A DNA stretch of 64,000 nt from Cryobacterium sp. Y57 (GTDB taxonomy: Bacteria; Actinomycetota; Actinomycetes; Actinomycetales; Microbacteriaceae): positions 32,810-96,809 of the forward strand of contig NZ_PJJL01000066.1 of NCBI RefSeq assembly GCF_002929505.1, in the 5' to 3' direction. This document shows, one piece after another, positions 1 to 24,460 of this stretch. Each line of letters begins with the position of its first letter. Positions within the stretch are counted from its first letter, which is position 1. Both the position numbers and the translations under genes were made by a program. The notes under the pieces are model-generated. The model worked only from the letters and a program-made list of their open reading frames with translations. It ran no database searches and was not told where the DNA came from.

Positions 1-6
1 CGGCCG

Positions 7-28
7 GCAAATTGCAGGAGTTATGCGC
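7..28 (-). repeat. One end of a REPIN-like palindromic repeat
   Basis: These 22 bases are the exact reverse complement of bases 23002-23023. They carry the core TGCAGGAGT followed by TATGCGC, which is the right-hand end of the 82-nt inverted-end elements at 23.0-24.5 kb. The matching left end would lie about 60 bases before the window. Confidence 0.75.
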
Positions 29-17379: not shown

Positions 17380-17387
17380 CTCGTGCG

Positions 17388-17515
17388 CCTCCCGTCCGGA
17401 CTTTGACCGTCGGTGCTGGAGTTTCACCAGCTCAACCGCTCGTCCCTCGATGGTGCTGGGGGACTAACGGGTCGCGGACTTTAACCGCCGGTTCGGAATT
17501 ACACCGACCCCGGAG
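17388..17515 (-). ncRNA. FMN riboswitch (RFN element) controlling the rib operon
   Basis: Reading the minus strand, the leader contains both conserved RFN arms: CCGGCGGTTAAAGTCCGCGA in the first half and GACGGTCAAAGTCCGGA in the second. GTAATTCCGAA and GGTGAAACTCC stand where the aptamer has its AATTCC/GAAATTCC elements. The order and spacing match the FMN aptamer. It ends about 95 bases before the ribD start. Confidence 0.93.
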
Positions 17516-17605
17516 CACGTGTATTGCAAGTTCTTCTTCTAGTTATAGTGCAACAGCCTGCGTGGCGTGTTATTCCCGGCGACAAGCGCTGTCATGGCAA
17601 CGACG

Positions 17606-21444: not shown

Positions 21445-22959
21445 ATGGCCAAGTACGTTCTCGCCATCGACCAGGGGACCACGAGCTCCCGCGCAATCAT
21501 CTTCGACAAGGCCGGGTCGATTATTTCGACCGGTCAGCTTGAGCACGAACAGATTCTGCCGCAGGCCGGCTGGGTTGAGCATGACCCAAAGGAAATCTGG
21601 GACAACACCCGAGAGGCCATCGGGCAGGCGCTGTCGAAGGCGAATATCACGCGCCACGACATCGAAGCCATCGGCATCACCAATCAGCGCGAAACCGCTG
21701 TCGTCTGGGACAAGACCACCGGCGTGCCCGTCTATAACGCCATCGTCTGGCAGGACACCCGTACCCAGCCGATCGTCGACCGGTTGGCAGCGGATGGCGG
21801 CGTCGATCGGTTCAAGTCGACCGTCGGCCTGCCGCTGGCCACCTACTTCTCCGGGACCAAGATCGTCTGGATCCTGGAAAACGTCGAGGGAGCACGCGCG
21901 AAAGCGGATGCCGGCGACCTTTTGTTCGGCACCACCGATTCCTGGGTGCTGTGGAACCTGACCGGCGGCACCGAGGGCGGTGTGCACGCGACCGACGTCA
22001 CCAATGCGAGCCGCACCATGTTCATGGACCTCAAAACTCTGCAGTGGGACGACGAGATTCTCAGCATTTTCAATGTGCCGAAGTCGATGTTGCCCGAGAT
22101 CAAGTCGTCCTCAGAGGTATACGGCACTGCCAGCGGACACAGCCTGCTGCGCGAGGTGCCGATAGCCGGCATCCTCGGCGACCAGCAGGCCGCGACCTTC
22201 GGCCAGGCTGCCTTCGACCAGGGCGAAGCGAAGAACACCTACGGCACCGGAAACTTTCTGATCTTCAACACCGGCACCGATATCATCCACTCGAAGAACG
22301 GCCTGCTCACCACCGTGGGCTACAAGCTCGGCGATGCGCCGGTGCACTACGCGCTCGAGGGTTCGATCGCGGTAACCGGCTCGCTCGTGCAGTGGCTGCG
22401 TGACCAGCTCGGCATCATCAAGGACGCCTCTGAGATCGAAGACCTCGCCAAGACGGTCGACGACAATGGTGGGGCCTACTTCGTGCCGGCCTTCTCGGGC
22501 CTGTTCGCGCCGTACTGGCGGTCGGACGCGCGCGGAGCGCTCGTGGGACTGACCCGCTACGTGAACAAGGGCCACATCGCCCGGGCGGCGCTCGAAGCCA
22601 TCGCGTATCAGACGCGAGAGGTGCTCGATGCGGTCAACGCGGACTCCGGGGTGCCGCTGACCGCGCTCAAGGTCGACGGTGGTGCCACGGTCAACGACCT
22701 GCTCATGCAGTTCCAGGCCGACATCATCGGCGTGCCCGTCGTGCGCCCGGTTGTCGCCGAGACCACCGCGCTCGGCGCCGCGTACGCGGCCGGCCTCGCT
22801 GTGGGCTTCTGGAGCGGTCTCGACGATCTGCGCTCCAACTGGCAGGAAGACGCCCGCTGGGAGCCCTCCATGGACCCGAAGGAAGCTGCTCGTCTCCTGC
22901 GCAACTGGAAGAAAGCCGTCACGAAGACCCTCGATTGGGTCGACGAGGACGTGAAGTAG
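21445..22959 (+). CDS. glpK: Glycerol kinase
   Basis: FGGY-family kinase of 504 residues phosphorylating glycerol to glycerol-3-phosphate. The N-terminal phosphate loop is [15 protein letters not shown]. The FGGY signature regions are [11 protein letters not shown] and [34 protein letters not shown], with [19 protein letters not shown] near the C-terminus. Length matches the family (about 500). AAAGGAG stands 6 bases before the ATG. It lies 83 bases after glpF, and the three glp genes form a complete uptake-to-DHAP route. Downstream is a palindrome-rich stretch. Confidence 0.96.
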
Positions 22960-22988: not shown

Positions 22989-23002
22989 CCCCTCTTTCGG
23001 GG
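22989..23002 (+). terminator. Small hairpin after glpK
   Basis: CCCC-TCTTTC-GGGG stands 30 bases after the glpK stop and runs into REPIN-like element A. It may act with that element as the glpK terminator. Confidence 0.35.
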
Positions 23003-23095
23003 CGCATAACTCCTGCAATTTGCCGCGTCAAGTTTTCGGAGGCCCGTGTTTTCGCGGTCCGTAGAAACAGTGCCTGCAATCTGCAGGAGTTATGC
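23002..23095. repeat. REPIN-like palindromic element A
   Basis: Inverted ends GCGCATAACTCCTGCAATTT and AATCTGCAGGAGTTATGC bound a 94-base element. ACTCCTGCA (from 23009) to TGCAGGAGT (to 23090) spans 82 nt, exactly as in elements B and C. The interior has a further fold-back, GGCCCGTG opposite CGCGGTCC across TTTT, so the element is one long imperfect hairpin. Confidence 0.8.
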
Positions 23096-23135
23096 CTCGG
23101 TGACTGCCGGTGACCGCCCGTGACCGGTGATGCAT

Positions 23136-23163
23136 GATCGGTGATCGGTGATCGGTGATCGGT
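23136..23163 (+). repeat. Tandem 7-mer repeat (GATCGGT x4)
   Basis: Four perfect copies of GATCGGT follow each other between REPIN-like elements A and B, preceded by the looser TGACCGCCCGTGACCGGTGA. No gene is affected. Confidence 0.85.
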
Positions 23164-23218
23164 GAACACGGCTCGATCGCCCTTCGGGTGACCGTTGTCA
23201 CTCCGGGATGGCCCGATC

Positions 23219-23312
23219 GCGTAACTCCTGCAATTTGGTCTCTCGGACCGGCCGACCCGAGTGCGTCCGGCTTAGATTGCAGACGAGTGCGGAGATTGCA
23301 GGAGTTATGCGC
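23219..23312. repeat. REPIN-like palindromic element B
   Basis: The ends read GCGTAACTCCTGCAATTTGG and AGATTGCAGGAGTTATGCGC. The core-to-core distance (23224-23305) is 82 nt as in A and C, while the interior sequence differs and contains its own fold-back (GGCCGAC opposite GTCCGGC). An extra partial end, AGATTGCAG, lies inside at 23273. It lies upstream of the endonuclease-like gene. Confidence 0.8.
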
Positions 23313-23330
23313 TTAGGCGAGAGGTGCGAC

Positions 23331-23358
23331 ACGAAAGAGTAAGCACGAAAGAGTAAGC
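23331..23358 (+). repeat. 14-bp tandem duplication
   Basis: ACGAAAGAGTAAGC occurs twice in direct succession, followed by a decayed third copy (ACGGAAAAGTTATGC). It lies between REPIN-like element B and the endonuclease-like gene. Confidence 0.8.
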
Positions 23359-23432
23359 ACGGAAAAGTTATGCACAGGCGGCTGGAAGTGCTGTCCCCAG
23401 ATTGCTTTCGGGGAGGTCCTCGTAACTGGAAA

Positions 23433-24374
23433 ATGACGACGATCGTCTGCATGAACCCATTTCTGACCTCCTTCGCTGGCCAGTGCCGCATCGTCAGCCG
23501 ACAAGACCTATTGAACAGCGGCATGCGAGCCAAACACATCACGGCTGCAGTGCGTAGCAATACGCTCATCCGAGTGCGCCGCGATCACTACGCTCTGCCG
23601 GGAACCGATCGCCACACCCTCGAGGCGGTTCGCATCGGCGGGCGCGAAGCCTGCGTTTCGGCGGCCCGGGAGATCGGCTTCTTTGCCTTCGACTCGCAAT
23701 TCACCCACGTGCATATCCCGCGGGAGGGCTCCCGTCTGCGCAGTCCCCAAAGTCGCCACGTTCCGCTGGCGGCCGCCCCGCGGGACGGCGTCGAGCTGCA
23801 CTGGTGGCCGCTCATCGACAGCACTGATGGCACCGAGTACTGCGTCGGGCCCCGCGACGCCCTCGCCCAGATCATCCAGTGTCAGGAACCTCGCTTCGCT
23901 CTCGCGGCACTCGACACAGCCCTGCACGAGCACAAGATTCGGGAAGCTGACCTCGACGAGATCTTCGCCCATGTCCCCGACAAGCATAGAGGGCTGCGGT
24001 CCCGCATCGACGCGCGAGTGGATGCCGGCCAGGAGTCCGTCCTACGCGACCTGTTCCGGGCCGCCGGGTACCGCTGCGACATTCAGGTGCACATCGACCG
24101 GGTCGGCCGCGTCGATGTGCTGGTCGAGGACTGTGTAGTCGTCGAGGCGGACAGCCAGAGTCATCACAAAGCCTGGGAGGAGCACATTCGCGACCGCACC
24201 CGAGACCGGTTGCTGGCAACCCTCGGCTACGTGACGCTCCGCGTGCTGTATCAAGACATCATGTTCGATCCGGAGGGGGTGCTTCGGGCAATTCAGAAGC
24301 TCGTCGACATTTGCCGGTATGGGAGCCCCCGAGTCTTCACAGCTGCCCAAGCCACGGACATCCGCGGCGCATGA
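23433..24374 (+). CDS. AbiEi-type N-terminal domain + DUF559/Vsr-like endonuclease-fold protein
   Basis: Protein of about 313 residues, start uncertain (ATG 23370, 23433 or 23451; none has a convincing ribosome-binding site). The N-terminus resembles the winged-helix domain of AbiEi-type antitoxins (CRIVSRQDLLNSGMRAKHITAAV...LIRVRRDHYAL). The C-terminal third looks like the DUF559/Vsr restriction-endonuclease fold: SVLRDLFRAAGY, VDVLVEDCVVVEADSQSHHK and RDRLLATLGYVTLRVLYQDI fit the D...ExD/K-type core. Such genes are frequent single genes in Microbacteriaceae with no proven function. There is no toxin partner beside it. It is bracketed by palindromic elements B and C, and its TGA lies within element C. 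It could be a defence, repair or repeat-mobilising nuclease, which is inference. Confidence 0.72.
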   Translation: MTTIVCMNPFLTSFAGQCRIVSRQDLLNSGMRAKHITAAVRSNTLIRVRRDHYALPGTDRHTLEAVRIGGREACVSAAREIGFFAFDSQFTHVHIPREGSRLRSPQSRHVPLAAAPRDGVELHWWPLIDSTDGTEYCVGPRDALAQIIQCQEPRFALAALDTALHEHKIREADLDEIFAHVPDKHRGLRSRIDARVDAGQESVLRDLFRAAGYRCDIQVHIDRVGRVDVLVEDCVVVEADSQSHHKAWEEHIRDRTRDRLLATLGYVTLRVLYQDIMFDPEGVLRAIQKLVDICRYGSPRVFTAAQATDIRGA

Positions 24375-24460
24375 CTCCTGCAAATTTCGAATGACTCGAA
24401 GTAGAAGGCCCACAATTCTGGGCTTTATCGAGTCTAGGCGGCAATTTGCAGGAGTTATGC
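24367..24460. repeat. REPIN-like palindromic element C, overlapping two stop codons
   Basis: The ends GCGCATGACTCCTGCAAATT and GGCAATTTGCAGGAGTTATG are 94 bases across and 82 nt core to core (24374-24455). The interior folds again (AAGGCCC opposite GGGCTTT). The left end supplies the TGA of the endonuclease-like gene and the right end the TAA of the convergent HAD gene. It probably also acts as a bidirectional terminator. Confidence 0.8.

Follow-up and report, generated by a model that had tools for sequence, protein, structure and literature searches.

REPtrons, in the accounts cited here, assign one enzyme gene to each palindrome type and flank that gene with its own palindromes (PMC3116915; PMC6006769; PMC8266576). 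In the same accounts, the palindromes are dispersed through extragenic DNA as inverted pairs at a set spacing, and enzyme and palindrome differ together. AbiEi monomers are reported to bind paired inverted repeats cooperatively and to bend the DNA, with a pair spacing of 13 rather than 3 bp in a relative (PMC7319586), and I-Bth0305I is reported to dimerize on a target site just under 60 bp long (PMC3943268). Here, a 64,000-nucleotide stretch of the genome of Cryobacterium sp. Y57 (the window) is analyzed, in which a gene for an AbiEi-like/nuclease fusion protein lies between two members of a dispersed palindrome family (Table 1). The position of this gene is the main clue to the family, and a preliminary description of the palindromes overlooked it. 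Gene and palindromes are associated across genomes, the arms are gene-specific and conserved, copies are dispersed, spacers drift while largely keeping their length, and the length classes lie about a helical turn apart. On balance, we favor the reading that the fusion protein, with its predicted AbiEi-type DNA-binding and Vsr/EDxHD-type nuclease parts, recognizes its own flanking and dispersed palindromes and would nick or cut DNA there, maintaining or spreading them.

The association extends well beyond the window. Among 40 genomes, all 11 homologs with at least 65% identity have palindromes on either side, of the same type (type 1) or of a variant core. Six homologs at 45-50% identity carry another kind of palindrome, e.g., GTGGCTAACTCAGGA or GTTGCTACTTCAGGA, on both sides in five cases and on one side in L068. 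A further set of 80 named loci from Cryobacterium, Microbacterium, Leifsonia, Agromyces, Plantibacter and others, which partly overlaps the first, provided 78 testable loci. Palindromes with matching arms stand on both sides of the homolog in 49 of the 78, compared with 1 of 430 offset control windows in the same loci, at a score threshold of 8 that was picked after the scores were seen; at a score of at least 6, the counts are 50/78 and 9/430.

Arm sequence follows the gene rather than the genome. Protein identity correlates with shared arm length (Mantel r 0.788, 0/2000 permutations) in 48 loci kept after pairs were recomputed with a slightly different score. Several distant paralogs, some of them in further families of the order (G026, G033, G035), have distinct arms of their own, and four genomes each contain two paralogs whose arms differ (longest runs in common 4, 4, 7, and 4). 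In two loci from other families of the order, L083 and L084, near-identical palindromes stand on both sides of the homolog, with arms of up to 36 nt in L084. The half-site CCCGNAA of a centre motif scores above threshold in 26 of 37 type-1 flanking palindromes but in no more than 13 of the 87 other palindromes, against an off-centre rate of about 1% (128 palindromes tested, 4 in neither group), so the motif is not universal.

The dispersed copies track the gene as well. Type-1 pairs occur in 18 of the 40 genomes, every one within the genus, and type-2 pairs in 10, including all six where the gene at 45-50% identity has such flanks. Pairs with the variant core are confined to two genomes, the same two that have variant-core genes, at 2 and 3 copies; in each, one of the copies flanks the gene. 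With the gene flanks subtracted, type-1 copies are more numerous in genomes with a matching gene (9 vs 14 genomes, p 0.001; p 0.014 with the variant-core pair of genomes included), as are type-2 copies (6 vs 19 genomes, p 1.2e-4), all three values being uncorrected for relatedness. In Microbacterium, five genomes have a gene that carries a TTCAGTC palindrome. They hold 13, 13, 7, 13, and 5 copies of it, or 11, 11, 5, 11, and 4 once the copies flanking the gene are left out, and three control genomes hold none. Type-1 and type-2 palindromes also stand side by side in G014 (C29:71920-72110; C30:27886-28078), with gaps of ~15-25 bp as in REPIN clusters, and tandem copies are found in G016.

Within the window, the preliminary description had reported three elements with exactly 82 nt between the outer core edges. 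This distance holds in all three, each of which is 92 nt long, and the fourth copy suspected at the left edge exists, its remainder lying just outside the window. Two convergent genes take their stop codons from the arms of element 3, TGA at 24372-24374 for the nuclease gene and TAA at 24455-24457 on the minus strand for a HAD hydrolase gene. The half-site TAACTCCTGCA has 51 exact matches genome-wide (25 on the plus strand, 26 on the minus strand), and the pattern read backwards has none in the whole genome. The proposed genome-wide search for inverted pairs found the motif well outside the window: there are 27 pairs, 25 of them 92 or 93 nt long (92 nt, 17; 93 nt, 8; 94 nt with an N, 1; 81 nt, 1), and one solitary half-site on contig C52. 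Decayed copies may escape this count because at least one exact half-site was required. By open reading frame (ORF) prediction, 26 of the 27 elements lie outside coding-like ORFs; the adjoining genes are convergent at 11, codirectional at 11, and divergent at 4. Interior identity reaches 67% in the best pair of equal length, with a median of 36%.

Table 1. Features of the window discussed in the text
Feature	Position	Strand	Core-to-core	Context
Palindromic element 1, 92 nt	23004..23095		23009-23090	Between FGGY-kinase gene (21445-22959) and element 2
Palindromic element 2, 92 nt	23219..23310		23224-23305	Upstream flank of nuclease gene
Palindromic element 3, 92 nt	24369..24460		24374-24455	Downstream flank of nuclease gene
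Fourth element, right end	1..26			Remainder left of window (locus L043, 6943-7036; 94 nt, G-run and N)
AbiEi-like/nuclease fusion gene, 307 aa	23451..24374	+		Single-copy, between elements 2 and 3
FMN riboswitch	17380..17521	-		Rfam RF00050, 95.6 bits

The fusion gene has a single match in its own genome. The listed ORF begins at 23370, and homologs favor the ATG at 23451. An AbiEi-like winged-helix domain (residues ~1-187) is followed by a DUF559/MTES_1575 nuclease domain of Vsr/EDxHD type (~190-290), and tests for an AbiEi fold and for the Vsr/EDxHD catalytic fold were both positive. The DUF559 profile scores 30.9 bits, above its curated cut-off of 20.6, and the MTES_1575 profile 35.1, slightly below its cut-off of 38.2; NCBIfam has no name for any of the four family members searched. 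E195, D222, D234, H239, and D248 are invariant across 40 intact sequences, and we take these to be the residues of the EDxHD motif. In several members (e.g., L070, L071, L075, L078-L082), CACACTG, GACACTGG, or GACAGTGG recurs a few bases 5' of the ATG, which suggests that a conserved promoter drives a leaderless transcript.

The gene lies between an FGGY kinase and the convergent HAD hydrolase, with no AbiE toxin gene (nucleotidyltransferase) beside it, and an AbiE toxin-antitoxin locus is rejected on this ground. The same neighbors surround the gene in the near relatives whose flanks were aligned (G009, G020, G010, and G013). It is improbable that the protein is a selfish homing or defense nuclease that cuts DNA without, or with, the palindrome and leaves palindromes as scars or protective marks: the gene keeps its place between these neighbors, many palindromes accompany one gene, and no Rfam intron is present in the window.

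Comparison with relatives separates what is conserved in the elements from what drifts. All 16 orthologous elements in the nearest relative, G009, are equal in length without a single indel, compared with 14 indels in flanks of equal total length. Substitutions amount to 14.0% in the spacer, 9.9% in the centre, 13.1% in the flanks, and 2.4% in the arms, this last value being partly selected, as copies were located by ends with at most 4 mismatches of 14. Arms are the slowest-changing part in G020 and G010 as well. The comparison used a stricter pair set, with doubtful pairs, some with a flank identity as low as 0.68, left out and collapsed or truncated copies outside the counts. The arms are therefore kept, and spacer sequence drifts freely while spacer length is largely kept. 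Over three arm types, lengths fall into classes of 75/86, 79/91/100, and 70/82/93, with 182 of 183 copies in a class, within ranges bounded by the search patterns and, for type 1, among the matches listed. Class steps of ~10-12 bp suggest that both arms need to lie on one side of the helix. A length-measuring mobilizer, as raised in the preliminary description, fits these data well, in that spacers diverge from G009 at the flank rate with length kept and classes are spaced ~10-12 bp apart. The 81-nt copy, L053 (6952-7032), belongs to a shorter class, which is also seen at ~70 core-to-core in Microbacterium (G008, G040); its interiors look unlike those of the long class and seem to lack the long-class centre.

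Old sites, many of them individually conserved at fixed length in G009, could also serve a chromosome-wide regulatory or architectural protein. The AbiEi-nuclease would then shut down its own promoter and, at intergenic sites, bend or bridge the DNA, without mobility of the palindromes. Autorepression by AbiEi proteins through inverted repeats, as reported (PMC7319586), and the palindromes upstream of the nuclease gene agree with such a role. Against it stand the invariant putative nuclease residues in 40 sequences, the palindromes on the 3' side of the gene, and the placing of copies more often between convergent or codirectional than between divergent genes. Occupancy also varies between species, and palindromes occur in genomes without the gene. 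We regard this explanation as possible but doubtful.

The preliminary description had further held that each copy folds back on itself and had raised selection on a folded hairpin. Whole elements do fold strongly (mean z -6.15, n=26), because of their arms. Interiors alone fold near randomly (mean z -0.66, 6/26 below -2; -0.84, +0.86, and -3.80 in the three window copies). The compensatory-change test that had been called for was negative: the interior halves (positions 21-46) of 25 elements have 211 identical positions, compared with 226.9 +/- 10.9 for shuffled partners. Partner positions do not covary, and the hairpin idea therefore fails for the interior; the arms alone could form a hairpin. 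Strong arm hairpins, and convergent genes around 11/27 elements, would suit ordinary bidirectional terminators or folded RNA elements. The lack of compensatory pairing in the interior, the tracking of the nuclease gene by arm sequence across genera, the 4/27 copies between divergent genes, and the failure to find an Rfam family at the elements make such functions very unlikely to explain them. The FMN riboswitch is the sole known RNA family in the window. Short tandem repeats of GATCGGT occupy 23128-23165, between palindromes 1 and 2, and in one of the 27 own elements, L050, a type-2 half-site lies ~104 bp left of 6946.

Evidence on movement is mixed. Twenty-three own elements were looked up in four relatives. 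In G009, 13 of the 23 correspond to exactly 81, 92, or 93 extra bases, and the others show flank indels, one half, or no match. L046 is truncated in G010, where the intergenic surroundings are altered too, and another G010 copy, L244 (C8, 227800-228700), has collapsed to two fused arms of ~31 nt with its entire interior gone. G016 has four 97-nt type-2 copies at the edge of dispersed ~1.85 kb repeats that are 93-96% identical (L198-L202, from about 2979/3060); because of this position, these copies are not proof of palindrome mobility. L202 shares only parts of the repeat, and homology begins exactly at the end of the type-2 palindrome in L198 and ~40-70 bp further out in L199-L201. Turnover is hinted at by the species-differing occupancy, the collapsed G010 copy, the tandem copies in G016, and the adjoining type-1 and type-2 elements.

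Short, dispersed, extragenic elements with inverted repeats could be MITEs (miniature inverted-repeat transposable elements) of an unrelated insertion sequence (IS) that flank the nuclease gene by chance. This would leave unexplained why palindromes of matching type accompany one gene family time and again across many genomes. Target duplications were not seen either, though old copies could have lost them, and the nuclease gene alone was seen between such ends, with no search made for an IS bearing the same ends. We give this account hardly any weight, the least of the alternatives considered.

Several observations count against a nuclease that maintains or spreads the palindromes. The empty orthologous sites that the preliminary description had asked for were not cleanly present for any of the 23 elements in the four relatives, and absent elements (L045 in G010 and G013; L033 in G013; L040 in G010) coincide with lost or changed wider intergenic DNA. 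Flank repeats of 2-7 nt show no clear excess over shuffled flanks as target duplications (n=27), although duplications could have decayed in old copies. The copies in the Y57 genome are old, so that recent spreading there is not seen. A matched pair was not found in 29/78 homolog loci under the criteria used, the reading frame is interrupted within the matched stretch in 7/80 loci, and a strict pattern for a third palindrome type has no match in the 40 genomes. Near-complete genomes without a type-1 gene hold type-1 pairs (G005, 7; G014, 9; G018, 6; G019, 8), as orphan populations would. Length is kept less strictly in more distant relatives: 8 of 11 pairs are equal in G020, with 11 indel events in elements vs 21 in flanks, and 5 of 6 in G010, with 4 vs 12. 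In these two genomes spacers diverge faster than flanks (24.7 vs 20.3% and 30.4 vs 18.7%, respectively), and the selection built into the arm values belongs to the same side. Lastly, binding, cleavage, and movement of palindromes by the nuclease are inferred.

With these points included, an AbiEi and EDxHD fusion facing two arms ~80 bp apart would still find its natural reading in paired binding and cleavage. A pair of subunits would occupy the inverted arms from one face of the duplex, in the manner of AbiEi on its paired repeats. The bound protein may bend or bridge the DNA and place its nuclease domains above the stretch between the arms or above the centre of that stretch, and a cut or nick could follow between the arms or at the ends. 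Repair of this break or nick would then copy palindromes between sites or preserve them. The system would be REPtron-like but built on an unrelated nuclease, which likely recognizes a pair of arms in duplex DNA set at a constant helical register.

No description of a palindrome family tied to DUF559/Vsr-like genes was found in the PMC literature searched; bioRxiv and most subscription papers lie outside that search, and prior art is therefore possible. RepRanger tabulates three Actinomycetota, and its main text does not contain the terms "endonuclease" or "RAYT" (PMC12306157). By term search, a MITE review (PMC10969869) and an account of Cryobacterium genomes (PMC7381226) yielded nothing about such a pairing.

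If the proposal is true, an arrangement of a captive nuclease with a population of tiny elements has evolved more than once, and many actinobacterial genes now named "DUF559" or "very-short-patch-repair endonuclease" gain a function. REP elements are common bacterial repeats that the papers cited tie to a single enzyme class, HUH. The proposal is directly testable, as there are many natural gene-palindrome pairs, some with two different pairs per genome, and the spacing rule predicts which changed spacers would fail.

A possible likeness of GTTATGC to integron attC was also considered. Like MITEs, the Cryobacterium elements are short and dispersed with inverted ends; unlike with MITEs, no target duplication was seen, though old copies could have lost theirs, and the association is with a family of nuclease genes, not with a known IS transposase. 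Unlike the AbiEi antitoxins of type IV toxin-antitoxin systems, the protein has a nuclease domain and its sites are genome-wide. It also differs from Vsr, DUF559 proteins, and the EDxHD homing endonuclease I-Bth0305I, in that no intron was found at the locus and dispersed cognate palindromes are associated with it.

The REPIN likeness proposed in the preliminary description stands for design, with inverted ends, a variable spacer, near-constant length, and dispersed extragenic copies, but not for membership. An HUH Y1 transposase (TnpAREP/RAYT, PF01797) was found in 0/25 genomes including Y57 (16 from the genus, 9 from the order), with the control search positive in 5/14 known genomes, and a GTAG or CTAC tag, of the type carried by REPs of 20-50 nt, was absent from the outer 20 nt of either end in all 27 own elements; RAYT/REPIN membership is rejected accordingly. 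As in REPtrons, a single-copy enzyme gene is flanked by palindromes, and inverted pairs of set spacing are dispersed outside genes. The enzymes differ in class, however: the one in Cryobacterium is predicted to be a nuclease of Vsr/EDxHD type that carries an AbiEi-like domain, and that of REPtrons is an HUH Y1 transposase. The Cryobacterium elements, moreover, consist of two long ends whose spacing falls into classes roughly one helical turn apart, and the spacer between them drifts without pairing. There is about an even chance that Micrococcales AbiEi-EDxHD nucleases, each with its own dispersed two-armed palindromes, form a second, independently evolved kind of REPtron, which would read its palindromes as duplex DNA at whole-helical-turn spacing and would copy, or be exploited by, short elements without a transposase of known class.
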